Virus record (IMG/VR): IMGVR_UViG_3300030222_000026
Span: 1 to 54,646 of that record
Direction: 5' to 3' (one strand)
DNA length: 54,646 nucleotides
DNA from: a virus
In this document: piece after piece, positions 10,390-54,646 of the stretch
How positions within the stretch are numbered: the stretch's first letter is position 1
Layout: every line of letters begins with the position of its first letter
Notes under the pieces: model-generated
The model's database searches: none
The model's input: the letters and a program-made list of their open reading frames with translations, nothing else
What the model was told of the DNA's origin: nothing
Made by a program: the position numbers and the translations under genes

Positions 10390-13300
10390 CTATTCCGTAT
10401 CGCGTGTGTAGTCGATGAAGTCGAGCGTCGATGGGTCGATTTTCGCGGACTGACGTTGTCGGGTTCGCTCAGCCTCTCCCGCCGCCAAATCAACCATCAT
10501 CTCCCGGACGGGCTTCACACCGCCAAGGACGGGCACGCGCTCGGCAATGGAGCGAACGCCACGCCGCTCGGTGGAGTTGCTATCCGGGGTGCGGTCGAGA
10601 AGAGCATCAAGCCCCCCAGAGGCCACGTTGAACGCCCCAACGCCAGTGGAGACGGACGGCCCGAAGAGGGTCGAAGCCACCCTCACCTGGCCATAAGCCC
10701 CATTGTCCGTCTGAGACACGACGTCGTGGATCATCTCGAGGAGAAGGCCGAACCCTGCTGCGTGCGTGAAGCCTTCGACCACCCAACCGGCGTACATGTC
10801 GATGGTCTCATCGTCCATCGGCTCCGACATGAGCGGGTTCCAGTCAGAGAAACGACGCTCTCGAAGAGCAAAATCGGGATCATCCCGCTCGCCACCACGC
10901 CCCTGAACAATGTCCTTCACAGCCAGGGAGCCCATGCCTGCGGCAGGAGCGGCTGTGAGCAGCCACATGGCGCGGCGCAGATCGCCCGTCCCCTTCAGGT
11001 TGCTCGGAGGCTTCTTCCCAAGCATGTCGTAGAGGGCCAGCTTGACGTCATCGACGATGATCTCCTTGGACATCCTCATCATCATAAGGGGGAAGGACTT
11101 GAGTTGGAAGATCATCGCCCCGAGCGGCGTCTGACCCCAGATCGGAATGTCTGCCGGGTTCGGAGCGAAGATGGACTCGTCGGCAAACTTGATCACGGCA
11201 ACACGGGCGGCGTCGCTGTCGGCAATACCGATGGCCTCGTTCGTGTAACGCCCCTCGAGAACATCCGGACTGTCGATCATGGGGGCGCTCCGGTGGGTGA
11301 AGCCCTCCAACCCATAGTTCTTGAGTGTGCGGTAGGCGCGCTTGACCTTCGCGGGCTGCTGGTGGAACGGGACACCATCGACCCAGGCGTCGTGAGCCTT
11401 TTTCTGAGCCGCCTTGAACGTCTCAATGGCGACCGCACCAGCGAAACGACGGTTCACATCCGTCCAGGGAGTCAGGCCAGTTGCGTTGAAAAAGGCGTTG
11501 GTGAAGCGACCATCTGATGCTCCCCACATGTAGGCCAGCCTGTCGTGCAGGATCGACTCCCCCGCGACACCAATGTTCTCCAGCATCTCCCTGTAGACGG
11601 GATCGCTGGCGAAACGCCTGAGCGCCTTCGCATAAGCACTCATGTTGCCAGAGCGGATGAGCGGGAGGACGGGGTCGCCAAGTGAGGTCAGCGTCGTGAA
11701 GCCAAGGAGGGTCACGAGGTTGAAGTTCCGCATGCCACGCGAGAACTTCAGCATGCCCTCATGGTCGGACAGCGTCTTGCGGTTAGACACCTTCATCAAG
11801 CGCTCGATGAAATGGGCCGCGTCGTTGGTGATGAGGTGCGGGTCTCCATCGAAGTCCGAGAGCGCGGCGAGGATCGCCTCGACGCGACGCTCGTAGAACA
11901 ACGACGGCTCCCCATTGGCCTGATCGACTGGCTGGTACTTCATCAGGATATTGCGGGCGACCGGCTCTCCGAGCCCTGGGTCGGCAAGAGCCTCTTCCAC
12001 CTCCCGAATGACCTGAGCCGCCTCCTGCTCCTTCCCCTCGAAGGGCATGTTGAAGGTGTCGAGGAAGACGACCTCCTCCATGTTGCCGCTTTCGTCGCGC
12101 GCACGTTTGGTGGATTGAAACACCTTCTTGGTGGTCAGGAGTTGAACCGCACCTGCTGTGCCATCCTGCATGACCTTCAGGTAGTCATAAGCCCCATGGG
12201 AGCCGATGCCGAAAGTCTCGATCTGGTGGATGCGACGACCAGCCTGATCGTAATACTTCACCATGACGGCCTCGAGGTCGTCTTCGAGGAACTCTCGCAG
12301 GGCCATGCTGGTGTCGGAGTTGTCCAGGCGGATCGCGCGAGAGCCATCAAGGTTCTCGGCTGCCGAGTTTCTGGATGCCCCACGGCCCGGCACCATCAGC
12401 CCTTCACTCTCGTCGTCGAGGATTTTCAGGACAGTGCGGCGAGCAATCTCCTCAGTCTCCTCGCGGCCAAGGGGGTTGCCCTCGCGGAGCGAGGCATCAA
12501 GGAAGTGATCCCGGAGAAGAGACGTGAAGCGCTCGCGGTCCTCGGTCGACTTGTGGATCTTGTGAACGCTCCACAATTGCGGGAAGTAGTCCTTGATGAA
12601 CCCGATGCGGGGGTCGATGCGACGCATGGCATCGTGCGTCCTGGCCAGGTGATCCGCAATGGCCTGAGCCGCACGTTGCTCTTCAGAGGACATGGCGTTC
12701 CAGTTGCGCTTGTTGCGCTGAGGATCGACAGAGCCACGCTGCGACAGCCAGCGGAAAATTCGCTTATGGCTTTCAGGCTGGTCAGCCCCGAATTTCCTCG
12801 TGCCAGCCGCATCCGCTGTTGCGCGACGATACCAGCGATGGAGGGCGTGCTTCACGCTACCGCTCGAGTCAGGGAGCGTGCGCAGGATCTTCAGTGGCCC
12901 CTTGTCCTGAAGCCCACCATGCAGAAGACGGTTGGTGATCTGCGTCGAGCGCTGGAAGTAGGTGTCGAACTTCCCGGCGAGCCAGTGGGCATTGAAAACA
13001 CGGAGCGTGTTGGGGTTCGAGCGGAAGACGCCCTCGGCGAAGTTGCCAATGGCGCGGCCACCGGGGAGCATGTCGAGCATCCCGCGAACAAGGCCACGGT
13101 TGCCGTTGTTTTTCGTAAGGCGAATGACCGCCCTCTGGTCGGCATCCGAAGGCGCGCGCTTGCGGACGAAATTCCCGATAGCATGCTGGACATCGCGCAG
13201 AGGCTCCGCCTTCGAGATCGAGGAAAGGATGATCGTCGCCTTCGCGTCGTCAATGCCAGACGCATCGCCGTCGACCGTCCTGTTCAGGACAGGGCCAGAC

Positions 13301-16300
13301 GGGCGGATCGGGGTGCCGGTCGGGTGAGCGAACTCCTCAAAGAACTCCGGTTCAGCCGTGAGTTTGACATCGGATGGGTCGAAGAGAACCGTGCTGTCGA
13401 TAGCGTTGAACCCACGGTATCCAGACGCCCGGAACAGGTTCGACGCAGCGGTGCGGCTCGTGGCTTTGGAGAGACGCTCATAAAGCAGGTAGTTCGTCGG
13501 GAGCGTGTCGATCTCCTCAGCCTGATCGCGCACCATGGCGGCGAATGACTCGAGGGCCTTCGTCATCTTCTGAGGTGCTGTGCCCTTGTACCGTCCGGAC
13601 GCAACGGTTTCGAGGAGGAGCGAGACGATCTTCGGATACCCATCTTCACTCAGCGAAACCGGAGCGCCGAGGTCGAGGAGGCTCGTCGTCCGGGCAATGA
13701 CCGGAACAACGTAGTCGTCGTGGAGGACATCCTTTAAGTCCTCCATCAGGGCGGCTTCACGGTCGAGAGCGTCCGAGATAGACTTGGAGGCGGACGGCCC
13801 GGTGCCACTCGATGCCTTGTTCAGAAACTCCCTTGTCTCCTGAAGCAAGCGGATCTTTTCAGTGACTTCGCCTGTCACAACAGCGTCATCACGCAGGAGC
13901 GGAATGGAGTTCGAAGGGACTGCCTGAAGGTAGACGCCAGGGCCGAACTCCTTGTTCATCGAGACGATGGATGGAGAGTCTGTCTTCGCGGCCTTGGATT
14001 TTGCCGAAATCCGGTAGAACATGACAGGGGCGGTCTTCCCCGAAATGTCCTCTCCAGCGAACAGGCTCATCTCCCGCTTCCGGCTCGGGGGAGCGGACAT
14101 GACGTCATCAATCGCGAAGCGCGCTTGCCCCGGCGTCAGAATGTTGTTGGCCGGAAGATAGGCTCGAGGAACAAGATCGCCGCTGAAGGGGTTGCCATAC
14201 CAAGTCAGACGGGCGTTCGTTTTCGCGACGGGCTCCGACATCAGACCGTTGGCCATGTAGCCGACGCGGTCGATAATGCGGCTGATGAAATCATCAGGGG
14301 AAGAGGCATTGCCAGACGAGGGAGCCATCGGAGGAAGCGGGGCGGCCTCGTTCATACTGTTGTGAAGGCGGTGATGGACGGCCTTGCGAACCCACATGTC
14401 GGCAACGGAAATCGCTTCCTCCGGGTTCTCTCGTGCGATGTTCCGAGCCTCCTCCGGAAAGAACGAAGTGACCTGCTCGACCCAATTGTCCCCATCCAGT
14501 CGCGCGGCGATTTCCGAAAGCCGGTTGATCGCCTCCGCGCTGTCCCCATTCCTGCCGCTCAGACCGGAACCAATCTGCCGGAAGGTTTCGACGAAGCGCT
14601 TGTGCGCCTCGTTGCCAGTCGCGACGAAAAGGCCGTCGACGAATGGCTCGCTCTCGAAGCCAAGGAGGTTCTTCACACGTTCAGCATCGAGCGGATCGCC
14701 CTTGTCGGCAAGGTTCAGGAAGCGAAGGGCAGCCTTGCGGGCTGTATATTCCGTTCGCTTCTCCCGATGAGCGATGGAGATCAAGACCTGGCGCGTGCTC
14801 TGGTCGATATTGCCAGGGACGCCGCGCTCGGAGGATGCAAAAGTGTCGAAGGATTTCTCCCGCTCAATGGCGTCGAGAACGGTCGGCTCTGCAAAGGAGA
14901 TGATCGGATTGCCATTATTGCGAGAAGCCAATTCAAGGGCATAGGCATCGACATCCTCATCGCCAAGACGGAACGCCTCATCCACCGTGGCCACCAGATC
15001 GTCGATATCCTGAATGGAAGCGCCCTTCCGGAGTGGAGCACCATCCTTCATGTAAGGATTGATGATGACCTTCGTTCGCTTCGCTGTTTCCAGCGCCTCG
15101 GCATAACGATCCGCCTGATCCGTTTCATTGGCCTCGATGACACGTTCGAGTTCGGTTTCAGACATTGCCGTAGCCGAAGTCATAGACTGTGCATCGGAAG
15201 CTGGACGGATCGGTGCGGTCTTCCGTCCAGTGTTCTGGACCGCCACCTCATCGACCTTCTTGCGACGACGGGCGCGGACCTCGGCAGCACGCTCACGAAG
15301 GCTCTTCGAGGCCCTCTCCATGTGCTCGACTGTCGTGCGCCCCTCCTGAGCAAGCCTCACCTCGCGCTCGGAGCGACTCTCGGCACGCTTGAACTCCTCA
15401 ACGGTTTCCGAAGAGATCTCGATTGTAGCTTCGCTCCCGTCGATCTTGGCAATCGCGAAGCGTCCAATTTCGGGGCTGTCCTCGAAGCCAATGACACGAG
15501 CCACGAAGTCGTCGGTCTTGTGCAGGAAAGGGTCGCCGATCCGGACGTCATGGAACTTCTTCCGGTCGTTCCCGATGACGGCGACCTTCGCATCCTTCGC
15601 ATCCTTCGTGCGGTCAAGGTACTTCTTCTCGAGAGAGGCAGGGGTGTATTTCGCGCGAGCGCCATTGCGCTCGAAGGACGTATCGAGGGACTTGTGCGCA
15701 AGGTTTAGCCAGTCGGACAGAGAAGACCCCTCGGCGCGCTCACCAGACCCGACCTTCTTCTTCCCATACAGGAAAAGCTCCATCAGGCGGTCGGCGACCT
15801 CCTCGGGCCTCGCGCCGACCTTCAGGCTGTCAGAGTCAAGATCGCGCACGCTGGCGGCAGCATGGTCCAGGGCGTTCGAGTTCTTCTTGGTGAAGGGGTC
15901 TTTCGTAACCTCCTTGGCATCCGAAATACCAACGACCTCACGGCCCGCAAGAATACGGGCGATGTCGTGCGCCTTGTTCCGGCCATGAGCGGCGAGGCGG
16001 TTCTTGCCGCCAGCATGGTAGGCATAGAGAACACCAGCCTCGCCATACTGCGATTGCAGGGGAGTTCCGGCGCGCTCTGCCGCGCGCCTCATGATCGACG
16101 CCATCTGCTTCTTGGAGAACGTCGAGCCATAAAGATAGGAGAGGGTCTCCTTCGCTGCCTGAATGGCCTTGTCCGGGACATCCCGATTGGCAACGGCATC
16201 GTCCCAAAGCTCATCCAAATATTGGAGCCGTCGAGAGTGGTTCTTCAAAACTCGGACGTAGGACGCGCGCTCTTCCGGAGCGAGTTCGAGAAGCTCCTCC

Positions 16301-19300
16301 TCCGTGTAGTCACGGACCCAATTCTCGATAGGGCCAGTGCGGCGCTCCCCGTCCTTCTTCTCATCGGAGTTCAGACCAGGCTTGACCTTCTTGCCCGTGC
16401 GGCGATCTGTCGACGGTGACGGCGGAGTCGGAGTGTCGTCCACGTCATCCGTTGTATCTGCCGCGTCGGGAAGCGCGTCGCCAGCGCCAGAGGCAGAGTC
16501 GAGCTTGCGCGCCTCGATCTCCGCCATCTTGCGCTTTCGCTCGGGGAGCAACCTCGCGAAGTGCGGGACCAGATCAGGGTCGATGGAAGTCTTGGCGAAG
16601 AAACGGTCGAAGACCGCCTTGATGTAGTAGGTCGCCTTCTGCCAGATCGAGCGCTGAGCATCTCCCCGGACTTCACGAGTGGCCCACATTGCGAACTGGT
16701 TCGCGAGGAACTCGGCCGGGCTGTCGAGAGCGTTCAGAACGCCAACCGCACGCCCATTCACCGCCTCGATGGGAGAGCGCTTAAAGACATCCAGCGGAGA
16801 GAAGACGCCATTGGCGTCATAGTATTTTCCGAGCGACTCCATGACGGATGCCTTGTCGGCATCCGACATCACATGAACCCACGCCCAATGGAAGATCTCA
16901 TGGAACAGCGTCGCGGTCGGCGGCGTATCGCCCTTGGCAATACGCGACGTGTTGAAGGAGACCTGCCCAATGCGGTCGCCACGAAGCCCGCCAGTGGCCG
17001 TTTCCGCCGCCGCCTTCATGGACGCATCCTGAGCGAACCGGGGGAGTGCACGGGAGGCCAGTCGGTCGACGAACTCCTTCGCGGTCTTGACCTGCTCAGA
17101 GCCGAATGACGAAAAGATCAACTCGATCTCGGCAAGGGCAATGGTCCTGTCAGCCTCGGGCAGAGCAACCCCATAAGGAGCCAGTCGAGAACGCATCTCG
17201 GTGAGGCGCTGGACGAGGGCCAGTAGCTCACGCTGCGCGTCAAGCGAGGTCGGCCACTTCGACATGAACTTGTGAGCACCCTTCAGACGACGATGCGCCC
17301 CCAACTCGATGTTGGTCAGAAGGCGCTGGATCGTACGCCCATTCACACCCCCGCCACTTGCGCGAAGGCCGTCGATGTAGGCGACCGCATCACCGCTCTT
17401 GACCTGGAGGCCAGCGGCCACACGAAGCGTACTCCAGTCTTCCTCCGTGAGCTTCTCCGGCGAGAGTATCGCGGACTCGAAGTCCGCGAAATTCATCGCC
17501 GTGCGCTCCTCGTACCTGGTGATGGCAGGCGTCTGAGGTTTGCCTGACGACGCAGCCTTCTTCCCAACTGCGGTGTTCGGGGTGTCAGGATCAACGTAGG
17601 TGGCCGTCCAGTCCTCGAGATCCTGCTTCGTGCCAACAAGATCCTGAGCCGTACGCTTCGCGTCGATGTCGGACTTGCTGGCAAGAATTGTCAGGCTCGG
17701 GTCCTTTTTCAAGGTGAGGAGAAGGCGACGACCCTGATCGTCGACAAGATCAGGCATGTCGATGGGAGTATCAACGGATGCCATCTTGCGCTCGGCGCGC
17801 TTCACACGCGCGAGCATCTTCTCCACGCTGATCTTGCCAGCCGCGTAATCGTCGAGGGCCTTCTTCTGGATGTTGCGAACGCGGTTCTGCTCGGTCGGAG
17901 CGGCCCGGTTCACCTCGTCGAGAATGTGCTTAGGGGCCTTGGTGGGGGACTCCAGACCCATGGCCGAATAGACGTTCCGCCAGTTCTTGAAGACCTTCCC
18001 GTTGGGCGAAACCCACAACATGGAGCCGCTCGGGGAGACCTTAGGGCTGTCGACCGTCTTCGTCTGGCGCGTGGCGATGAACGCCGCAGGCAGATCCTTG
18101 CTCTGGGCGATCACATTCGCTTCGTCGCGCGTCGCCACATTCTGGTAGTTGGCCTCGCTCTCGGTCGGGGCCATGCCCCGATCCGTCGAATACTCTTCGC
18201 CCGTCTCTTTCGATGTGTAGGAACGGCCAGGGCGCATGAAGGACTGGATGTTCTTCTGCGTGTCCTCGGTCGCATAGATGGACTTGCGCTCGATGGAACT
18301 CTGCGCGGAGCGCGTGCGGCCAGTGTCCGAGACGGATGCCGCGCGCTCGACCGCCTTGGTCGCCCGGTCGCGAGCAATGATCTCCGGCATGTCCGGATTG
18401 TCCCGCATCGTCTCCATCGTGAGACGCTCAATCTTACGGGCCTTCTCGCGAGCCAGACGCTTCTCGGTCTGCTGGCGCTCGTACTCCGCCTTGCTCAACT
18501 TGATTGGCGCAGAGCCCTCCTCGACCCCCGCTTCCTTCGCAGAGCGCACGTAGCGCTCGATCTTGGCGTACTGCTTGGCGTCATCGGAAACGCCGAGTTC
18601 TTGCGCGACCGCGCGTGCGATCATCGACGGGTCGTCGCGGAAACTCGCACGGATTTCCTCCGGCATCTCGTCAAGGCGCTCAACCAGTCGCTCGGTCGTG
18701 GCGCGGACGTTCGTGGCGAAGTCCTCCTCCGCAACACGCTCAGGGGTTTCCTGAGCCAGATACTTGCGGATATCGCCCTGAGTGACCTTCCCATCCTTGC
18801 CAGTGGGCGTCACATCATCGAGGTCGACAAGGTTCGCATCGGCAAAACGACGAACCTGTTCGCGGGTGACACTGGATGTGGTCGCCTTGGGGGGCACCTC
18901 GGGAGGGATAACGCCAGTGGGGGCAGCCCCGGCCTCAGCTTCGGCACGCTCAAGCTCAGCGAGTCGGGCGACAAAATCGTCGAGCGTTCCAGCGTCATCA
19001 AGACCTTCATCGACAGGCGTGGAGTCAGGAACTTGTTCGGTGACTTGTTCGGTGGGCCGCTCATCTGGAGCGGTTACACCTTCCTGGGAACCCGTGCCTC
19101 GCGCCGCCTCAGTGGGCGCTTCAGTCGGCGCTTCAGCACCCTCCCCCTTGGCGGTCGTACGCGCGGCTTGTCCACGACGCGGCTCACCCCCCTTCTTCGC
19201 TTCCTTCTGCTGCTCGGCCTGCTGCGCCTTCTGCTGCTCGGCCCGCGCCTTTCGCTCCTCAAGTCTCTGGCGGATGAATGCGCCATAGTCCTCCGGGACA

Positions 19301-20589
19301 GTCTCCGTCAGGAGCGCGTCCAGCATGGCCATGTCTTCCTCGAAGACGCCAGCCCGCTTGCGGGCGCGCTCGAGAGCATCCAGCTTATTGCTGCCCTCAT
19401 CCTTGATGATCTGGGCAAGCTCGTTCTCGGTGCGCTGCTGGAACTCGAGGGCCATGCGAACGTTGGCGAGACGGCGCTTCACCTCGTCGAGATAGTCCGG
19501 GTCGGCGTCAGCCTCCTCGCCAAACTCGACCTGACGCCGGTATTCGTTGAGAAGCTCACGCAGCTTGGCCTGATGCTGTTTCAGCTTGAGACTGTCTGCC
19601 TCGCGGGCCTCGGCGGCAGCGCGTTCCGCCTCCATCTCCGCAGTCTGCTCGGGCGTCAGATCCTCCTGAGGGGCATCGGAACGCGAGGCCAGGACGGCAG
19701 GAGACGGGGGGCGCTGGTTCTGGACGACCTGCCTGACCTCGCCCAGCGTCATGTCCATCAGTTCAGTGGGGCGATAGCCAAGGTCGATGGCCTGGTCATA
19801 TGCCTTACTCGCCTGGGAGCGGCCAATCGCACCGCCCGCAGCGCCGAGGATCGAGCCGACACCGGCACCCATCAGAGCACCAAGGGTGACATCCTCAAGG
19901 ACAGCCATACCCGAGACGCCGTCCTGAAGCCCAAGCTCGGATCGCATCGACTGTTGACCAACAGAGGCAAGACCCTCCGCCGCGCCGCTGATCAGGCCCT
20001 CGACCTTCGCGCCGTGGAGCGCACCCTCCTTCAGGGCGCGACCAACGGTGAAAGACTCCCCAAGAGAGCGCGCGGCCAGGAGGCCCTTGCCCACTTTCGC
20101 CGATGCGCTAACAGCAGGGATGACGTTGAGCGGGTCGGTAATGACGCCCTCGGCAATTGAGGGTACGGCAGACAGGCCGCGCCCCCCCTCGGAGAACATG
20201 CCGGGGTATTTTTCGGAAACCTGCTGAAGGCGCGCGAGCGCCGCCTTGCGCTCTTCGGAGGAGTTGGCTGCGTCCGCGAGAGAGCCAGTCGCACCAACGA
20301 AGTTGCCAACGGAGTTGAAGGTGCGCCTGTTGAAATTGTCGAGAACGAGGTCGCGAAGCTCCTCGCGCGTCTTTCCCTCGGCATCAACCCCGAATGCGGT
20401 TCGAACGTCCTCGAAGAAACGAGGGTCGTTCATCAACTCATCAGGGATACGGGCGCGTTCTGTGTAATCGCCCGGATCAGATTGCACACTTTGGCTGGGC
20501 TGCTGCTCCCGGAGTCGGCGACGGTATTCGCTGACGGATACACCTGCGGCTTCGGCAGCGCGGGAAAGCGCAAGAAAATCTTCGGACAA
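10390..20589 (-). CDS. Giant internal/ejection protein with protease and ART-like segments
   Basis: This 3399-aa protein ends a run of internal virion genes, like the very large ejection proteins of T7-like and Bcep22-like podoviruses. A Gly/Ala hydrophobic stretch lies near residues 150-260. A fold like the E2 peripheral-subunit-binding domain (REQVRRFADANLVDLDDVTP) lies near 565-605. A zinc-protease motif, LFHEIFHWAW, is near 1228-1237. An ADP-ribosyltransferase-like part is near 2190-2410 (MFYRIS, FGPGVYL, then GYRGFNAID and VLFDPSDVKL). Membrane-prone segments occur near 2955 and 3205. Translation appears to start at TTG (20589), preceded by GGAG. It is probably injected with the DNA; enzyme activities are inferred from motifs. 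Confidence 0.8.
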   Translation of the reverse strand: MSEDFLALSRAAEAAGVSVSEYRRRLREQQPSQSVQSDPGDYTERARIPDELMNDPRFFEDVRTAFGVDAEGKTREELRDLVLDNFNRRTFNSVGNFVGATGSLADAANSSEERKAALARLQQVSEKYPGMFSEGGRGLSAVPSIAEGVITDPLNVIPAVSASAKVGKGLLAARSLGESFTVGRALKEGALHGAKVEGLISGAAEGLASVGQQSMRSELGLQDGVSGMAVLEDVTLGALMGAGVGSILGAAGGAIGRSQASKAYDQAIDLGYRPTELMDMTLGEVRQVVQNQRPPSPAVLASRSDAPQEDLTPEQTAEMEAERAAAEAREADSLKLKQHQAKLRELLNEYRRQVEFGEEADADPDYLDEVKRRLANVRMALEFQQRTENELAQIIKDEGSNKLDALERARKRAGVFEEDMAMLDALLTETVPEDYGAFIRQRLEERKARAEQQKAQQAEQQKEAKKGGEPRRGQAARTTAKGEGAEAPTEAPTEAARGTGSQEGVTAPDERPTEQVTEQVPDSTPVDEGLDDAGTLDDFVARLAELERAEAEAGAAPTGVIPPEVPPKATTSSVTREQVRRFADANLVDLDDVTPTGKDGKVTQGDIRKYLAQETPERVAEEDFATNVRATTERLVERLDEMPEEIRASFRDDPSMIARAVAQELGVSDDAKQYAKIERYVRSAKEAGVEEGSAPIKLSKAEYERQQTEKRLAREKARKIERLTMETMRDNPDMPEIIARDRATKAVERAASVSDTGRTRSAQSSIERKSIYATEDTQKNIQSFMRPGRSYTSKETGEEYSTDRGMAPTESEANYQNVATRDEANVIAQSKDLPAAFIATRQTKTVDSPKVSPSGSMLWVSPNGKVFKNWRNVYSAMGLESPTKAPKHILDEVNRAAPTEQNRVRNIQKKALDDYAAGKISVEKMLARVKRAERKMASVDTPIDMPDLVDDQGRRLLLTLKKDPSLTILASKSDIDAKRTAQDLVGTKQDLEDWTATYVDPDTPNTAVGKKAASSGKPQTPAITRYEERTAMNFADFESAILSPEKLTEEDWSTLRVAAGLQVKSGDAVAYIDGLRASGGGVNGRTIQRLLTNIELGAHRRLKGAHKFMSKWPTSLDAQRELLALVQRLTEMRSRLAPYGVALPEADRTIALAEIELIFSSFGSEQVKTAKEFVDRLASRALPRFAQDASMKAAAETATGGLRGDRIGQVSFNTSRIAKGDTPPTATLFHEIFHWAWVHVMSDADKASVMESLGKYYDANGVFSPLDVFKRSPIEAVNGRAVGVLNALDSPAEFLANQFAMWATREVRGDAQRSIWQKATYYIKAVFDRFFAKTSIDPDLVPHFARLLPERKRKMAEIEARKLDSASGAGDALPDAADTTDDVDDTPTPPSPSTDRRTGKKVKPGLNSDEKKDGERRTGPIENWVRDYTEEELLELAPEERASYVRVLKNHSRRLQYLDELWDDAVANRDVPDKAIQAAKETLSYLYGSTFSKKQMASIMRRAAERAGTPLQSQYGEAGVLYAYHAGGKNRLAAHGRNKAHDIARILAGREVVGISDAKEVTKDPFTKKNSNALDHAAASVRDLDSDSLKVGARPEEVADRLMELFLYGKKKVGSGERAEGSSLSDWLNLAHKSLDTSFERNGARAKYTPASLEKKYLDRTKDAKDAKVAVIGNDRKKFHDVRIGDPFLHKTDDFVARVIGFEDSPEIGRFAIAKIDGSEATIEISSETVEEFKRAESRSEREVRLAQEGRTTVEHMERASKSLRERAAEVRARRRKKVDEVAVQNTGRKTAPIRPASDAQSMTSATAMSETELERVIEANETDQADRYAEALETAKRTKVIINPYMKDGAPLRKGASIQDIDDLVATVDEAFRLGDEDVDAYALELASRNNGNPIISFAEPTVLDAIEREKSFDTFASSERGVPGNIDQSTRQVLISIAHREKRTEYTARKAALRFLNLADKGDPLDAERVKNLLGFESEPFVDGLFVATGNEAHKRFVETFRQIGSGLSGRNGDSAEAINRLSEIAARLDGDNWVEQVTSFFPEEARNIARENPEEAISVADMWVRKAVHHRLHNSMNEAAPLPPMAPSSGNASSPDDFISRIIDRVGYMANGLMSEPVAKTNARLTWYGNPFSGDLVPRAYLPANNILTPGQARFAIDDVMSAPPSRKREMSLFAGEDISGKTAPVMFYRISAKSKAAKTDSPSIVSMNKEFGPGVYLQAVPSNSIPLLRDDAVVTGEVTEKIRLLQETREFLNKASSGTGPSASKSISDALDREAALMEDLKDVLHDDYVVPVIARTTSLLDLGAPVSLSEDGYPKIVSLLLETVASGRYKGTAPQKMTKALESFAAMVRDQAEEIDTLPTNYLLYERLSKATSRTAASNLFRASGYRGFNAIDSTVLFDPSDVKLTAEPEFFEEFAHPTGTPIRPSGPVLNRTVDGDASGIDDAKATIILSSISKAEPLRDVQHAIGNFVRKRAPSDADQRAVIRLTKNNGNRGLVRGMLDMLPGGRAIGNFAEGVFRSNPNTLRVFNAHWLAGKFDTYFQRSTQITNRLLHGGLQDKGPLKILRTLPDSSGSVKHALHRWYRRATADAAGTRKFGADQPESHKRIFRWLSQRGSVDPQRNKRNWNAMSSEEQRAAQAIADHLARTHDAMRRIDPRIGFIKDYFPQLWSVHKIHKSTEDRERFTSLLRDHFLDASLREGNPLGREETEEIARRTVLKILDDESEGLMVPGRGASRNSAAENLDGSRAIRLDNSDTSMALREFLEDDLEAVMVKYYDQAGRRIHQIETFGIGSHGAYDYLKVMQDGTAGAVQLLTTKKVFQSTKRARDESGNMEEVVFLDTFNMPFEGKEQEAAQVIREVEEALADPGLGEPVARNILMKYQPVDQANGEPSLFYERRVEAILAALSDFDGDPHLITNDAAHFIERLMKVSNRKTLSDHEGMLKFSRGMRNFNLVTLLGFTTLTSLGDPVLPLIRSGNMSAYAKALRRFASDPVYREMLENIGVAGESILHDRLAYMWGASDGRFTNAFFNATGLTPWTDVNRRFAGAVAIETFKAAQKKAHDAWVDGVPFHQQPAKVKRAYRTLKNYGLEGFTHRSAPMIDSPDVLEGRYTNEAIGIADSDAARVAVIKFADESIFAPNPADIPIWGQTPLGAMIFQLKSFPLMMMRMSKEIIVDDVKLALYDMLGKKPPSNLKGTGDLRRAMWLLTAAPAAGMGSLAVKDIVQGRGGERDDPDFALRERRFSDWNPLMSEPMDDETIDMYAGWVVEGFTHAAGFGLLLEMIHDVVSQTDNGAYGQVRVASTLFGPSVSTGVGAFNVASGGLDALLDRTPDSNSTERRGVRSIAERVPVLGGVKPVREMMVDLAAGEAERTRQRQSAKIDPSTLDFIDYTRDTE

Positions 20590-44837: not shown

Positions 44838-45101
44838 ATGGCCCTCACCACGGCGGCGGCCAGCCGCAAGGATCGCTCGATGAGCGACCACGAACTCAGG
44901 CGGTTTCAGCACCGCCATTACGCTGCCATCGCCGCCATCCTGCGGCGTATGCAGGAAGACGGCCTCGTCCCTGTGCCCATCTGCAACAGGGTCACGCAGC
45001 ACTTCGCCAACGAGTTCGAGCGGGCGAACGAGAAGTTCGACCGATCCCGTTTCATCCTCGGCACCGTGAGTGGCGATCACCTGCCCGAAGACTTCGCCTG
45101 A
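44838..45101 (+). CDS. Hypothetical protein, first gene behind operator B
   Basis: This 87-aa basic, helical protein (ELRRFQHRHYAAIAAILRRM, then RVTQHFANEFERANEKFDRSRF) has a CACACGAAAGGACACCAC leader before its ATG. It heads an operon controlled by the palindrome at 44781. No family was recognised. Confidence 0.68.
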   Translation: MALTTAAASRKDRSMSDHELRRFQHRHYAAIAAILRRMQEDGLVPVPICNRVTQHFANEFERANEKFDRSRFILGTVSGDHLPEDFA

Positions 45102-46679: not shown

Positions 46680-47438
46680 ATGACCACCATCAATTTCGTG
46701 AACGTTCCCACCTCTTGCGATGCCGACACCATCGACGCCGACTCCAGGGCGTTCGGCGACGCCCTCATCAAGGCGTTCGTCGCCTTCGTCGACAATCGCC
46801 TCGATGCCGACCCGGAATTGGGGGAAGTGGAGCATCTGGAGACTGCTCGGCACATAACGAGGGGTCCGGATGGAGACTCCCAGATGCAGAGCACCCACCT
46901 GATACAGCAGGTGGCCAATGGCCTCTGCGACAACGACCCCCGCCTGATGTTCGTGCTGCTCAACCTGATCGGGCTGCGTCGGATCGCGCTGACCCACAAG
47001 ACGGGGGCGGCGCACGCCTTCATCAACTCGTTGATCGCCGCCACGGTGAAGACGAGGGTTGCGCCTCCGAAGATCCTCGAGATCGCCTACGACGTCGCGG
47101 TCAGAAAACTGGAATACAAGGTCGAGTTCCGTGGCGAAGACGGCTTCGTCGTCTTCGAGGACGGACGGGAGTTCAAGGTGGCCGGGGGGCGGAATGGCAC
47201 CGACTTCCCCGAGCCGGTTTCGCTCGAAGATGAAGCGGAGCACGAGGTCAGGGCGATCAGGCTGACACTCGATGACGTCAACGAGTTCGCCACCTTGGTC
47301 GAGCAGGCCGAGGCCGGGGGTGGCGACACCATCTCGTGGCGGGGCATGGACGTCCCGCTCGAGGTCGCCACCAAGCTGATTGCCATGGCCAAGGCGGCTG
47401 AGGAGGCGGGCGGGGAGCCCAAGGCCACCGTCCACTAA
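46680..47438 (+). CDS. Hypothetical protein behind operator C
   Basis: This 252-aa acidic protein has a helical first half (ADSRAFGDALIKAFVAFVDN, then LIQQVANGLCDNDPRLMFVL). The second half has a beta segment (KVEFRGEDGFVVFEDGREF) and an acidic C-terminal helix. No known domain was recognised. The leader GACACAAGG is directly before the ATG. It is the only gene between operator C and the 27-bp element/terminator pair, so it forms its own transcription unit. Confidence 0.7.
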   Translation: MTTINFVNVPTSCDADTIDADSRAFGDALIKAFVAFVDNRLDADPELGEVEHLETARHITRGPDGDSQMQSTHLIQQVANGLCDNDPRLMFVLLNLIGLRRIALTHKTGAAHAFINSLIAATVKTRVAPPKILEIAYDVAVRKLEYKVEFRGEDGFVVFEDGREFKVAGGRNGTDFPEPVSLEDEAEHEVRAIRLTLDDVNEFATLVEQAEAGGGDTISWRGMDVPLEVATKLIAMAKAAEEAGGEPKATVH

Positions 47439-47459
47439 GACTTCCCACTGACACGCACA

Positions 47460-47486
47460 ATGCGTGTTGAAAGGGAGTCTTAGAGA
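47460..47486 (+). repeat. 27-bp recurring element, copy 3
   Basis: It is nearly identical to copy 2 and again lies directly upstream of a hairpin terminator. Confidence 0.8.
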
Positions 47487-47487
47487 A

Positions 47488-47520
47488 AGCCGAGGCCGTC
47501 TTTTGGCCTCGGCTCTTTTC
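47488..47520 (+). terminator. Rho-independent terminator behind 27-bp element
   Basis: AGCCGAGGCC and GGCCTCGGCT form a perfect 10-bp stem with a 7-base loop followed by CTTTTC. Confidence 0.85.
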
Positions 47521-47546
47521 TCAACCGACACAAGGACACCACCACC

Positions 47547-49376
47547 ATGGAATACCGAGCCAGAGCGGAGGCGCTCGTGGCGGCGTACTGTCGTGGCCAC
47601 ACGTCAGAGCACGCCCGAACCTTCAACGACCATCGCCGCAGCCGAGTGCGCAAGCTGGTCATGGACGCAACCGAGGATTGGGACCGTGATGGCCTCCTTC
47701 ACGAGGCTGATAACCACGGCCACGGCCACAGGTTCTCTTCGTACAAGGGAACCTTCAGCACACTGCGTGACACCATGGATAACTCCATGATGGTCGCTGT
47801 CGTGCTTGGCCTTGCCGATGAGGAGATCATCCGGAAGCTGCTTCGGGGCCATAAGCCCCTCTCGGCACCTTATGCGGCGATCAGTTCGTTGGTCACTCAC
47901 ATGAACCAACTCAACCTGATCATATGGCGTGAGGCACTCCTGATTGGAACGCGGGCACATCCGAACGATACGTCGGAAGACCTGAAGAAGAGGTCGGAGA
48001 GAGTCGCTCGAGTAATTGCGAACGCGAAGTGGGACTCCGGCATCGACACCGAAGACTTCCAGGAGTTCGTCATCAACCATGCGATGACGATGGCGACCGC
48101 CCTCGCGGAGGGCGGTCTCGACCCCAAGTCCGTGCACGACATGGACACCACCACCACCACCGAGAAGGACACCACCATGACCGACACCAACATCGACTCC
48201 ATCACCTCCGGTCTCGAAGCCATCGGCGACGGCGAGCGCGCCGTGGTCGATGCCTTGCTTCAGAAGTTCAACGTGCCGCAGATCGACGACATCGAGTCGA
48301 AGTTTCAGACGCTCAGGGAAAAGGCCAAGGAGGCGGCGTCGGGGCCGACCGGCGTGAAGATCGAGGTCAAGCTGGAGGATGCCTATGGCACCAACAAGGT
48401 CGGCGATCTGCCTGATGGCAAGGTCGACTATCGCAAGGCCAGCGACGTCTTCGGCATCACCGGGAAGGGTGTGTCGATGTTCGATTTCGATGTGCCCGTG
48501 TGGACGTGGGATGCGGAGCACCCGATGGTGCCGGAGGTTGACGATCACTATCGGTTCGAGCCGTCCTCGCTCCTGCGTGCGCTCATGGCCGTCGTCATGA
48601 ACAAGATGGCGTGGATTTACGGTCATACCGGGACCGGCAAGTCCACGCTCGTCGAGCAGATCTGCGCCCGCCTCAAGTTCCCGATGATCCGTGTCAACTT
48701 CGACTCCGAAATCACCCGCATGGACCTGACCGGGAGGGATACCCTCACCATCGACGCCTCGACGGGAACGCAGATCACCGAGTTCGTGGAGGGTCTGCTG
48801 CCGCAGGCGCTCCAGATGCCCTGCGTGATGCTGGCCGACGAACTCGACGCCATCCGGCCCGACGTCGCCTACGTGTATCAGCGGGTTCTCGAAGGCAACG
48901 GCATGGTGCTCAACGAGAACGGTGGGCAGGTGATCAAGCCGCATCCGTGGTTCCGCCTCATGGCAACCGGCAACAGCCGTGGCAACGGCGACACCAGCGG
49001 CATGTACAACGCCGTCAGGCCGCAGTCCATGGCCATGCTGGACCGCTTCGGCGTGTGGATCGAGGTCGACTACATGGCCATCCACGAACTGAAGAGGCTG
49101 CTCAAGTCCAAGTTTTCGGCGCTCAACAACGACGAGATCGACCTGATCTCCAAGTATGCCAACGAACACTGGACGGCCTTCAAGGGCGGCGATCTTCGCC
49201 AGCCGCTCTCGCCTCGTGGTGTTCAGGCGGTTGCCGAACAGTACACCTTCTTCAAGGGGCTGATGGCGCAGGACAAGGCCATCGAGCAGGCGATCCGCTG
49301 CGCCGTGGCCGACAGGGCCGAGGAGTCCGACGCGCAGGTCATCGCCGGGCTGATGCAGCGGGTCAAGAAGTCCTGA
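47547..49376 (+). CDS. MoxR/CobS-like AAA+ ATPase fused to an N-terminal domain
   Basis: This 609-aa protein has an unrecognised helical domain (residues 1-198), a linker DTTTTTEKDTT (200-210) and a CobS/MoxR-like AAA+ domain. That domain carries Walker A GHTGTGKST (359-367), Walker B VMLADE432 and a MATGNSRGNGD sensor-like motif. MoxR-type ATPases act as chaperones with VWA proteins, and such a gene follows at 49480. The linker DNA looks like this phage's normal intergenic leader, with a ribosome site before ATG 48177. That internal start would yield a 399-aa CobS-like protein, so two products are possible. Confidence 0.82.
   Translation: MEYRARAEALVAAYCRGHTSEHARTFNDHRRSRVRKLVMDATEDWDRDGLLHEADNHGHGHRFSSYKGTFSTLRDTMDNSMMVAVVLGLADEEIIRKLLRGHKPLSAPYAAISSLVTHMNQLNLIIWREALLIGTRAHPNDTSEDLKKRSERVARVIANAKWDSGIDTEDFQEFVINHAMTMATALAEGGLDPKSVHDMDTTTTTEKDTTMTDTNIDSITSGLEAIGDGERAVVDALLQKFNVPQIDDIESKFQTLREKAKEAASGPTGVKIEVKLEDAYGTNKVGDLPDGKVDYRKASDVFGITGKGVSMFDFDVPVWTWDAEHPMVPEVDDHYRFEPSSLLRALMAVVMNKMAWIYGHTGTGKSTLVEQICARLKFPMIRVNFDSEITRMDLTGRDTLTIDASTGTQITEFVEGLLPQALQMPCVMLADELDAIRPDVAYVYQRVLEGNGMVLNENGGQVIKPHPWFRLMATGNSRGNGDTSGMYNAVRPQSMAMLDRFGVWIEVDYMAIHELKRLLKSKFSALNNDEIDLISKYANEHWTAFKGGDLRQPLSPRGVQAVAEQYTFFKGLMAQDKAIEQAIRCAVADRAEESDAQVIAGLMQRVKKS
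48147..48179 (+). promoter_or_regulatory. Translated leader with internal start inside the AAA+ gene
   Basis: ACCACCACC repeats followed by GAGAAGGACACCACC and ATG match the leaders before 44838, 47547 and 49480. It is in frame within the larger gene. It could drive internal initiation at 48177. Confidence 0.65.
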
Positions 49377-49398
49377 AAAGTTCACATGGCCAGGAGGG

Positions 49399-49420
49399 AC
49401 GAGGCGCTTGCGCGCCTCGT
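49399..49420 (+). terminator. Hairpin after AAA+ gene
   Basis: ACGAGGCGC and GCGCCTCGT form a perfect 9-bp stem around TTGC, followed by only a short TT. It may attenuate transcription into the VWA gene. Confidence 0.6.
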
Positions 49421-49479
49421 TTCCACCATTCGTGCGGGAGCGGTGAGGCTTCCGCTTCTCTTGAGTGAAAGGACACACC

Positions 49480-51552
49480 ATGACTGACAAACCAATCGAC
49501 GCAATCGACGCCGACGCCCCCGGCGTCAAGCCCTTGATCTTCAAGGACGAGATGACGCGTGTGACCCGCACGTTGAGCCGTGACGCTGGACTCAATGTGA
49601 TCGTGTCTGGAACGCGGGCCTTCACGAATGGAAAGACCGTCGTGCTGCCCGACGTCGACGACACGGTGAACATCTCCCAGAACGCCGCCAACGTGGCGCG
49701 TGGTTACGTTGACCACGAGGCGGCGCACAATCGGTACACCGATATGGAGGGCGACTGGATCGCCAAGGCGAGAGCCCACGGTGGTGACTACGCTGAAGCC
49801 GTGCTTCAGGCCATTGAGGACGTGCGGATCGAGGGTCGGCAGGTCGCCGACTATCCGGGCAGCAAGGTGAACCTGTCGGCCACGGCCAACGCCACGTATC
49901 GGGTGCTGAACGAGGGCATCGAAGCGGGGGAGTACGACCTGTCGGATCAGCGGGCCATGTTTCCTGCGAGCGTCACGGCCAGGGGGCGGCAGAAGATCGG
50001 GCACGACCTCCTCGCAGAGGAGGTCGAGAAGATGGCGTCGCATCTCGACGGCGAGAATGCGTCGAAGCTGGAGACGCTGACCGACGAGATCGCCAGTCTG
50101 GCGTCGACCGAGGATGCCTTCCATCTGATGCGGCGGTTCGTCGACGAGGATGGCCAGATGCGGGATGAGCCGCTGAGCCGGGAGGCCGAGGGCCAGATGC
50201 CGGTGAAGGAGGGTAACGATGATGGCCAAGGCGAAGGCGAAGGGGGCAGCCAGAAGGGCGAAAGCGAGGGCGAGAGCCGCATGGGCGAAAGCGCCAAGGG
50301 GGCTGGCGGCGTGATGTCGAAGGCTGCCTCCGAGGCGGTATCGAGGGCGCTTGGAACAAGGCGTGAGTACGACGGAGTCCCCTACCTGTCGGATTGGGAA
50401 CTCGATATGTGGATCAGCCCCCGCAATGTGGAGGAAGTGTCGAAGGGCGTGGGAGAGGGCGCGAAGTTCGTGAGCGGCACTGTTCATGGGTGCTTTCTCG
50501 GGGCCAAACAGAACGAGGGGCGCAAGAGGTACAACGGGAAGAAGCGGAGGATCGGGCCGCACCTCAACGCCATCAAGAGCGCGTTCGAGCGCTACCTCAT
50601 GTCGAAGATGCAGCGGGGGTGGGAGCACGCCCTCGAGCAGGGACTCATCGACCCAAGACGGCTTGCCCAGGTGCCCACGGGGGCCAGCAACGTGTACCGG
50701 CGGCGCGACCCGGTTCAGGAGTTGGATACCTGCGTATCCATCATCGTGGACATGAGCGGCTCGATGTCGGGGCGTGAGATCGCGATGGCGCAGGAGGCGT
50801 GCATCGCGATCAGCGAGGCGATGCACCGACTCGGCATCCCGTTCGAGATTGTGGGACACACGACAATGGGGGATGACTGCTCGAGTGTGGCGAACGAGAT
50901 CCGTGGGCATGAGCATCTCAACAAGAAGTCGCATTACTCCATCGACGAGTACGAGGATATGCCCATCGGTGTGGGGCCGAAGGTCTATGGACTCTACGAC
51001 CTCGAGAAGTTGGCTCAGAATGTCGCCGGAAAGAGCCTGTCGAAGATCAGGAGGAAGGAGGAGAAGATCAGGAGGAAGGAGGACTGGATACCGGACGTCT
51101 ACGCCGACCCGAACGTCTACCAGACGCTCTTCGTCACGAGGTTTTGGACCCAGAACATTTACGAGTTCAAGGGGTTCGACGACCGGCTGTTCGACGTGGA
51201 GCCATACATCGGCGTGATGGACCAGATGGCGGGCGGCGGCACGATTGAGGCCGACACGATCCTGAAGGTGTACCAGCGGCAACTGCGCCGCAAGGAGAAG
51301 AAGCGCGTCATCGTCGTGTTGTCGGACGGCCAGCCGGGTGGCTACGGGCTGGCCGACGAGGAAGAGCGGACCAAGGATGTGTGTCGGTACGTTGAGAGTG
51401 ACAAGAATTGTCACCTCATGCAGATCGGCATCGGGAGTCCTGCGGGCAAACGGTACTACTCCAATGTCCATGTGATCAACAATACGAACGAACTTGCGCC
51501 CGTGCTGTTCGCCAATCTCAAGAACATCCTGCGCGTCCAGAAGGCAAGCTGA
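49480..51552 (+). CDS. CobT-like VWA-domain protein, partner of the AAA+ ATPase
   Basis: This 690-aa protein has an N-terminal region with HEAAH (79-83), a zinc-protease-like motif, and IEDVRIEGR (112-120), as in CobT-like proteins. An acidic Gly/Glu/Ser-rich linker (about 243-275) follows. The C-terminal VWA domain has the MIDAS motif DMSGSMSG (424-431) and VVLSDGQPGG. CobT/CobS pairs assemble cobaltochelatase; MoxR/VWA pairs more generally remodel protein complexes. A real chelatase role is unlikely without a CobN. A Lys/Arg/Glu repeat, IRRKEEKIRRKE, lies within the VWA domain. Confidence 0.82.
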   Translation: MTDKPIDAIDADAPGVKPLIFKDEMTRVTRTLSRDAGLNVIVSGTRAFTNGKTVVLPDVDDTVNISQNAANVARGYVDHEAAHNRYTDMEGDWIAKARAHGGDYAEAVLQAIEDVRIEGRQVADYPGSKVNLSATANATYRVLNEGIEAGEYDLSDQRAMFPASVTARGRQKIGHDLLAEEVEKMASHLDGENASKLETLTDEIASLASTEDAFHLMRRFVDEDGQMRDEPLSREAEGQMPVKEGNDDGQGEGEGGSQKGESEGESRMGESAKGAGGVMSKAASEAVSRALGTRREYDGVPYLSDWELDMWISPRNVEEVSKGVGEGAKFVSGTVHGCFLGAKQNEGRKRYNGKKRRIGPHLNAIKSAFERYLMSKMQRGWEHALEQGLIDPRRLAQVPTGASNVYRRRDPVQELDTCVSIIVDMSGSMSGREIAMAQEACIAISEAMHRLGIPFEIVGHTTMGDDCSSVANEIRGHEHLNKKSHYSIDEYEDMPIGVGPKVYGLYDLEKLAQNVAGKSLSKIRRKEEKIRRKEDWIPDVYADPNVYQTLFVTRFWTQNIYEFKGFDDRLFDVEPYIGVMDQMAGGGTIEADTILKVYQRQLRRKEKKRVIVVLSDGQPGGYGLADEEERTKDVCRYVESDKNCHLMQIGIGSPAGKRYYSNVHVINNTNELAPVLFANLKNILRVQKAS

Positions 51553-53193: not shown

Positions 53194-53691
53194 ATGACGA
53201 AGAAGGAGACGGATGGACAGGGCGCGAACATGGAAAGTCCAGCGGTTGCGCAACTTCTGTTGGCGCTCGGTCGTGTCGAGGGGATGATGATGACCCTCAA
53301 GGATCGCGTCGATGCCCTCGAGAACGAGAAGGTCGTGAAGCCCTATCGTCGTAACGAGGAAGATCGTCAGGGCGATCCGGAGATCGTGCTGGCGGGGCTC
53401 ACGCCCCGGCAGCATGCAACACTGCAAATGGTGATGAACGGGAGAAGCACGCAGGAAATGGCGAAGCGTCTCGGCGTCACCGAGTCAACGGTCAAGGTGC
53501 ACGTACGCCTCATCGGCAAGAAGTGCGGCGTCAAGCTGAGGCGGCAGATCGCAATGTTTCTGCGGCCAGCGTTCGAAAAAATGCCCGCACGAAAATACCT
53601 CGCCATGTCCGGTGGACTCCCGAAGGATTGGGACGAAACCTGGGGCCAAGGCGGGGAGGCGTTCGACTACATCGTGAGGCAGGAGCCGTGA
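53194..53691 (+). CDS. LuxR/GerE-type HTH transcription regulator
   Basis: This 165-aa protein has a short N-terminal helix (VAQLLLALGRVEGMMMTLKD, coiled-coil-like). A GerE HTH follows at about residues 68-125 (LTPRQHATLQMVMNGRSTQE and MAKRLGVTESTVKVHV). No autoinducer or receiver domain is present, so it lacks a ligand domain and may dimerise through the N-terminal helix. It lies behind operator D and next to the integrase. That makes it the best candidate for the protein that binds the 23-bp palindromes, by inference. Confidence 0.8.
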   Translation: MTKKETDGQGANMESPAVAQLLLALGRVEGMMMTLKDRVDALENEKVVKPYRRNEEDRQGDPEIVLAGLTPRQHATLQMVMNGRSTQEMAKRLGVTESTVKVHVRLIGKKCGVKLRRQIAMFLRPAFEKMPARKYLAMSGGLPKDWDETWGQGGEAFDYIVRQEP

Positions 53692-53707
53692 GTAGTAGGA
53701 GGGTACA

Positions 53708-54646
53708 GTGCTCGACATCACAGCGAGAGGCGACAGGCTCTACATCACGGGAACGGTCAACGGGGAGCGGGTGCGACGCTCGACCGGGCTGAAGGTGGGT
53801 CAGGAGGCGGAAGCACGCCGCCTCCTGACGGAGAACATGGGGCCACGGGTGAGCGAGTGTGCGGATGAGTACATTCGCTCGCAGAGAGTCGGAACGACAT
53901 CACAGACGTACATCAGGAGGTTCGTGGACAGGTTCGGGCCAGTCAGGCTCGGCAAGATCGACGTGGCCAGGGTGTACGCCTTCTTCTCGACACGGAAGAA
54001 AGCGCCCGAAACCGTTCGGCGTGAGATCGGCGCGGTTCAGGCAATGCTTAATTGGTCCGCTCGGGCGAATGGGGTCGAGCGGACATTCAATATCCAGAAG
54101 CCAAGGGCTGGAGAGCCACGGCTCAGGTTCCTCGAGCAACACGAAGTGCAGGCTATGATCGAGAACGCATCGTCGTTCTTTCGACCGTTCGTCGTGGGGC
54201 TGTTCTATTCGGGAATGCGACGAGGCGAACTCGCCGGGCTCGTCGGGCGTGACATGGTGAACGGACAGTTCATCGTGGCAACGGCCAAGGGGCGGGGCGG
54301 AAGGGTCAGGCACCGGAGCGTGCCCGTGCACCCGGAGATCGAGAGTGTGCTGCCGACAAGGCCGGGGCCGCACGATCCGCTGTTCGTCAATGAGTACGGG
54401 GAGGCATGGGTCCATGACCTGACGAGGATCAACAAGCTATGGAAGGAAACGGCCAGTCGGGCGGGAGTGGAAGACTGCGTGCCGCATGACGCACGACGGA
54501 CGTTCGCCAGCCGCCTGCTGGAAAGCGGCGTGGATATCAGGACCATTGCGGCGCTTCTCGGGCACGAGGATCTGTCGATGCTCATGCGGTACGCGCAGGT
54601 CCGGGGACAAAGGAAAGTCGATGTGATGAGTTCGCTCGTCTATTGA
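53708..54646 (+). CDS. Tyrosine recombinase, phage integrase
   Basis: This 312-aa protein has an arm/core-binding N-terminal part and a catalytic domain. The domain has SGMRRGEL (Arg171 or Arg172), a candidate catalytic Lys near 194 in ATAKGRGGR, HDAR (His260, Arg263), LLGHEDL (His286) and the nucleophile Tyr295 in MRYAQV. It inserts and excises the phage at att sites. It starts at GTG with AGGAGG upstream, 16 bases after the regulator gene. The window ends at its stop, so attP should lie just beyond. No excisionase was recognised. Confidence 0.9.
   Translation: MLDITARGDRLYITGTVNGERVRRSTGLKVGQEAEARRLLTENMGPRVSECADEYIRSQRVGTTSQTYIRRFVDRFGPVRLGKIDVARVYAFFSTRKKAPETVRREIGAVQAMLNWSARANGVERTFNIQKPRAGEPRLRFLEQHEVQAMIENASSFFRPFVVGLFYSGMRRGELAGLVGRDMVNGQFIVATAKGRGGRVRHRSVPVHPEIESVLPTRPGPHDPLFVNEYGEAWVHDLTRINKLWKETASRAGVEDCVPHDARRTFASRLLESGVDIRTIAALLGHEDLSMLMRYAQVRGQRKVDVMSSLVY

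Follow-up and report, generated by a model that had tools for sequence, protein, structure and literature searches.

A probable second in-frame start within the interdomain linker of a CobS-like ATPase gene from a CRP-810-type phage

A ring-forming NTPase made in two lengths is known from phage T7, where both gene 4 proteins (63 and 56 kDa) are proven and the shorter one is without an N-terminal domain; the T7 protein, a helicase-primase, is unrelated to the CobS-like ATPase considered here. Among phage endolysins, single genes that yield two polypeptides by means of an internal in-frame start have been described; the internal start there has its own ribosome site, lies between domains and recurs in clusters, and the short product, which covers the C-terminal part, can join the full-length protein in one assembly (PMC9430671). 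The cobS locus discussed below is similar in having a putative internal start, in frame, between domains and behind a ribosome site of its own, with such sites in many relatives, but it encodes an AAA+ ATPase rather than a lysin, is known here from sequence, and has an internal ribosome site that resembles the phage's standard leader, read as a linker. The gene itself is widespread in its group, almost all CRP-810-type phages having both cobS and cobT, and the source for this, in the text available, treats cobS as a vitamin B12 auxiliary gene, terms its role uncertain and makes no mention of a second start (PMC11288001). The MoxR AAA+ systems NorQ-NorD and CbbQ have a VWA partner, as CobT is here, and the solved NorQ and CbbQ chains, of about 230-270 residues, are without an N-terminal region of the cobS type. 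Internal initiation in frame has precedents among phage genes; for phage CobS, a literature search over titles and abstract openings of openly accessible papers found no report of it.

The DNA analysed (the window) is the whole of IMG/VR record IMGVR_UViG_3300030222_000026, 54,646 bases long. Because its capsid (MCP, 78% identity), portal (67%), terminase (TerL, 51%) and primase-polymerase (Prim-Pol, 39%), along with other proteins, match those of Roseobacter phage CRP-810, the phage is by these sequence matches a CRP-810-type one, and it has cobS followed by cobT, a feature named for such phages (PMC11288001). In CRP-810 itself, which belongs to the same phage group, has the same gene pair and has a cultured Roseobacter host, FZCC0198 (PMC11288001), CobS includes the N-domain, and its gene has a GGAG-ATG site within it, at L004:2256. 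The last stretch of the window (53194-54646) holds LuxR-type and integrase genes that match CRP-810 genes, and a temperate lifestyle is therefore probable. A very long minus-strand open reading frame (ORF) at 10390-20589, of about 3,400 codons, spans matches to two neighbouring CRP-810 genes. An Rfam scan of the window gave no match, and no close relative of it was found in the collections searched with the cobS N-region and CobT as queries. The features of the cobS region are as follows.

47527-47546, + strand: leader of the long form, GACACAAGGACACCACCACC
47547-49376, + strand: long ORF of 609 aa, a CobS-like MoxR-type AAA+ protein with an N-terminal extension (open reading frame, family matches)
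47619-47822, + strand: stretch homologous to the N-domain of relatives, residues 25-92 (hhalign E 1e-5; hmmsearch 3.9e-5)
48138-48176, + strand: translated leader or linker, DMDTTTTTEKDTT, within a low-confidence stretch of the structure model (189-224)
48163-48169, + strand: AGAAGGA, a Shine-Dalgarno-like stretch ahead of the internal ATG (duplex energy -4.7)
48177-49376, + strand: short ORF of 399 aa from the internal ATG (M211), including the whole AAA+ module
48203-48216, + strand: CACCTCCGGTCTCG, CACCUCC-like, part of which can pair with the internal Shine-Dalgarno stretch in a 100-nt fold
48621-48647, + strand: P-loop, GHTGTGKST
49480-51552, + strand: partner gene for a CobT-like VWA protein, preceded by a leader, GAAAGGACACACC

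The long ORF, whose start has CACAAGGACACCACC, shows the sequence and fold traits of a phage CobS of the MoxR AAA+ type: family matches (phrog_249, 2.2e-55; AAA_5, 1.9e-14), the P-loop, a MoxR-like fold, with CbbQ and NorQ as the closest folds of the AAA+ part by fold matches of the structure model, and a downstream VWA neighbour with a CobT_C match (7.8e-23). The N-region of the long form is helical; it has no match in Pfam or PHROG, and a fold search with the N-terminal model returned no PDB match at E <1. Directly upstream of the cobS leader lies a terminator-like hairpin (47488-47514) of 11 pairs followed by CTTTTCT, and a search of positions 47300-49600 gave no sigma-70-like promoter.

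A preliminary description of this DNA read codons 200-210 of the gene as DTTTTTEKDTT, placed a leader of the kind found before other right-arm genes just ahead of an internal ATG at 48177, and proposed that the phage may make both a long and a short ATPase. The reading of the codons is correct, and they end in AAGGACACCACC immediately before the ATG at 48177, which encodes M211; the leader stands too, with the motif, given there as CACCACC repeats, corrected to (ACC)5 followed by GAG AAG GAC ACC ACC. The string GAGAAGGACACCACC is present exactly once, at 48162-48176. On both strands of the 54.6 kb, AAGGA followed by an A/C-only spacer of 4-11 nucleotides and ATG occurs six times, with the ATGs at 44838, 45119, 46179, 47547, 48177 and 49480, and all of them except 48177 are ORF starts, in agreement with the leader type proposed; third-order Markov versions of the right arm contain the motif 0.04 times on average and once at most. 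The duplex energy at 48177 (-4.7) falls within the range of the ten listed starts that also bear a leader, which runs from -4.6 to -8.0 with most values at -4.6 to -4.9, so that the internal ATG does keep a ribosome site resembling the phage's own leaders, and, because the long ORF also has its own leader, both starts look usable. In the AlphaFold models both linkers are covered by stretches of low confidence (189-224 in the window; 127-133 and 216-229 in the relative L015), with the internal start within 189-224 in the former and 127-133 in the latter; the ATG at 48177 is thus in frame, has a ribosome site to itself and lies outside the folded domains. Positions 48138-48176 hold two leader-like copies in tandem, GACATGGACACCACC... 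and GAGAAGGACACCACC, an arrangement that looks like a leader duplication; the copy at 48138, which comes first, is the leader with AAGG changed to ATGG.

At this particular site the Shine-Dalgarno letters are dictated by the residues E-K-D (synonymous p 0.80), and in the 100-nt fold they are partly paired with downstream UCC/GUCUC. This predicted pairing is a point against simple accessibility, and it could shut the internal site on untranslated RNA, which would make it a possible switch.

Relatives add family-wide evidence for a second start. In the first set of these, the junction between N-domain and AAA+ module is a Thr- or Asn-rich linker ending in Met, with a different peptide each time (TTTTEEEP-M, NNNGDTH-M, STTQEPT-M and TTKEKS-M, for example), encoded by A/C-rich nucleotides followed by GGAG or similar and then ATG. 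A composite rule (in-frame ATG, Shine-Dalgarno energy <= -4.3, second residue S/T/A/G/N, and A+C >= 0.6 in 30 nt) was applied to 54 nonredundant CobS ORFs (33,139 codons) and 51 CobT controls (32,941 codons), after removal of near-duplicates (shared 4-mers > 0.6) and of ORFs shorter than 250 aa around the anchor motif. It found 31 sites in 29 of the 54 CobS ORFs and 3 sites, anywhere in the ORF, in 3 of the 51 CobT ORFs, a difference for which the Fisher value of 4e-8 is only indicative because the rule was set after examples had been seen, the rows moreover being related. Within the linker interval, defined as 148-271 codons before the P-loop, 26 of the 54 CobS ORFs have a composite site and never two; 28 have none in this interval and 25 none anywhere, and N-domain members without a linker site include L001, L021, L022 and L035. 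Counts of Shine-Dalgarno-like sites alone were dropped as evidence for a linker start, the AAA+ core motif ranking as high (first, 17/23) as the linker (second, 16/23), and linker Shine-Dalgarno strength irrespective of ATG showed nothing unusual; what sets the linker apart from the AAA+ core is its low peptide identity (0.21), its A+C content (0.71) and its small second residue. In a later set of loci, a looser rule using the Shine-Dalgarno alone was satisfied in 11 of 19, where 6.3 would be expected (P 0.018).

The position of the site varies. It lies 217-229 codons before the P-loop in most relatives, in what is the first linker, and at 148 in the window, in a later linker, where comparable sites are limited to L111 (TSTEKETET-M, -148), L110 (-161), L053 (-171) and L034 (-158), the last of which fails the second-residue rule. 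On a tree of 52 rows, from which two of the 54 CobS ORFs were left out, the first-linker site is found in most of one large clade, and the second-linker site in the window and four scattered companions; the window is a long branch whose placement is unsure. Since the later-linker members do not group and presence or absence of the site needs about nine changes on the tree, the site seems to have been gained, lost or moved several times. A CobS-like AAA+ ORF in L128 (3468-4787) begins only 64 codons before its P-loop and has an extra C-terminal region.

The competing explanation that survives best, although we judge it improbable, is that this is an ordinary disordered Thr-rich linker, its amino acids accounting for the A/C-rich codons and the weak RNA structure and its ATG being a chance Met. 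It is favoured by the A/C-rich codons and weak folding of Thr/Pro/Asn linkers in general, by the commonness of Shine-Dalgarno-like sites in cobS ORFs and by the 28 ORFs without a linker site. Predicted RNA structure at the sites is near the minimum of the ORF (median fraction equally unstructured 0.005 in 54-nt windows and 0 in 100-nt windows), a contrast that falls to a median of 0.037 against A+C-matched positions (20/26 ORFs with >=3 matched positions). Against a chance Met stands the residue that follows, which is S/T/A/G after 14 of 16 internal Mets and after 76 of the 313 Met codons found elsewhere in these ORFs (p 4e-7); a few Mets beyond the strictly defined first linker (those of the window, L034, L039 and L044) were added by hand for this test, as for the first synonymous test and the first linker set. 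The codon that precedes a lone GAG also speaks against chance, for it ends in G, completing GGAG, in 12 of 12 cases (4.4 expected, P 2e-6), the test having been framed after the pattern was noticed in L029, L089, L090, L091 and L108. Synonymous choice, too, favours the Shine-Dalgarno at 21 junction sites hand-picked from the first-linker class (mid-p z 4.5; p 2.5e-7 against 430 control Mets); the first version of this test, with ties counted against, gave a Fisher p of 0.11 and a Stouffer value of 0.025. Nor would chance readily account for there being no more than one site per ORF in the linker interval, despite the other disordered stretches of the L015 model (216-229 and 267-290), or for the scarcity of composite sites in CobT. 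Over the eight residues upstream of the internal Met mean identity is 0.21, and these sequences suggest that the linker peptide drifts and the start signal stays.

The preliminary description went on to propose that an upstream gene, having lost its stop, turned the leader into a linker. A recent fusion of this kind in the present phage, with the upstream reading frame continuing across the ATPase leader, would draw some colour from the leader-like linker at 48138-48176 and from the short-form-only cobS of two sister contigs (L121 and L122); it is largely refuted and now seems very improbable, as residues 25-92 of the window protein are homologous to an N-domain that is fused in nearly all relatives. 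Among 88 N-domain ORFs in the fetched loci, near-copies included, 84 also have the AAA+ P-loop, and of the remaining four, two run off the contig end and two represent one contig with a frameshift; relatives with two separate genes, the check then proposed, did not come to light, the N-domain never being found as a gene of its own in this set. We reject a fusion private to this phage on this homology and on the union of N-domain and AAA+ module in one ORF in relatives. Three candidates for a detached or divergent N-domain were rejected: the gene upstream of cobS in L121 (E 0.41, unrelated), the ORFs upstream in L034 (no support for a split N-domain) and the cobavirus-type N-terminus of L010 (no homology). 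In L041, which shares its contig with L056, a frameshift at about 2280-2305, either real or an assembly error, interrupts cobS.

In L121 and L122 cobS starts behind AAGGAG, and in alignment with their sister L120 its start lies only a few residues away from the internal ATG there (CACGGAGGAACT-ATG); the contig stretch examined yielded no N-domain, and an AAA+-only protein therefore exists as its own gene in a sister line. On this basis an ancestral fusion at the root of the family is possible. The preliminary description had named, as the pattern that would speak against its reading, relatives that are all fused, with a conserved linker and no initiation at the internal ATG; what is seen is different: the linker peptide differs between relatives, and start signals recur.

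That the Shine-Dalgarno-like stretch is instead an elongation pause, during which the N-domain folds before the AAA+ module is made, would suit its place at a domain boundary and the codon choice favouring Shine-Dalgarno, but we give this little credence, for it leaves the ATG at start spacing and the small second residue unexplained, and in N-domain members whose linker has no Met the Shine-Dalgarno signal at that place is unremarkable.

We therefore return to one cobS gene with two in-frame starts, which probably gives a long and a short ATPase by internal initiation, a reading suggested by the sequences because start-like sites recur in an interdomain linker of many related phages; the second start in the preliminary description thus appears likely from family-wide signals, without the lost stop as its origin. 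Ribosomes starting at 47547 would make the 609-aa protein, consisting of the helical N-terminal region, the linker and the AAA+ module, and those starting at 48177 would make the 399-aa AAA+ module alone, their leader, of the phage's usual type, being translated as a disordered Thr-rich linker when the long form is made. By analogy with NorQ/CbbQ rings and two-polypeptide endolysins, the two forms would probably join the same ring, in which case the internal start would set the number of subunits that bear an N-domain. Mixed rings together with CobT are likely by analogy with the endolysins and T7 gene 4, and we infer them along with the act of initiation and the function; what the analysis shows is sequence, homology, recurrence in the family, codon choice and low predicted RNA structure.

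A bolder proposal, which we consider rather unlikely, is that in CobS mixed rings the translated leader sets the ratio of N-domain-bearing to bare subunits, and that CobS is thus a regulated two-form machine rather than a subunit of a B12 enzyme. Under this proposal the leader would have been kept as a start signal as the peptide drifted, and would have arisen in, or moved between, two linkers across lineages; it is from this retention, drift and movement that the regulated machine would follow.

The locus shows that a gene leader can persist within an ORF, where it is read as the linker between two domains. If the two-start reading is true, annotation of cobS as a gene with a single product misses the short form, and a single codon, that of the internal start, would offer a clean handle on the role of the N-domain.
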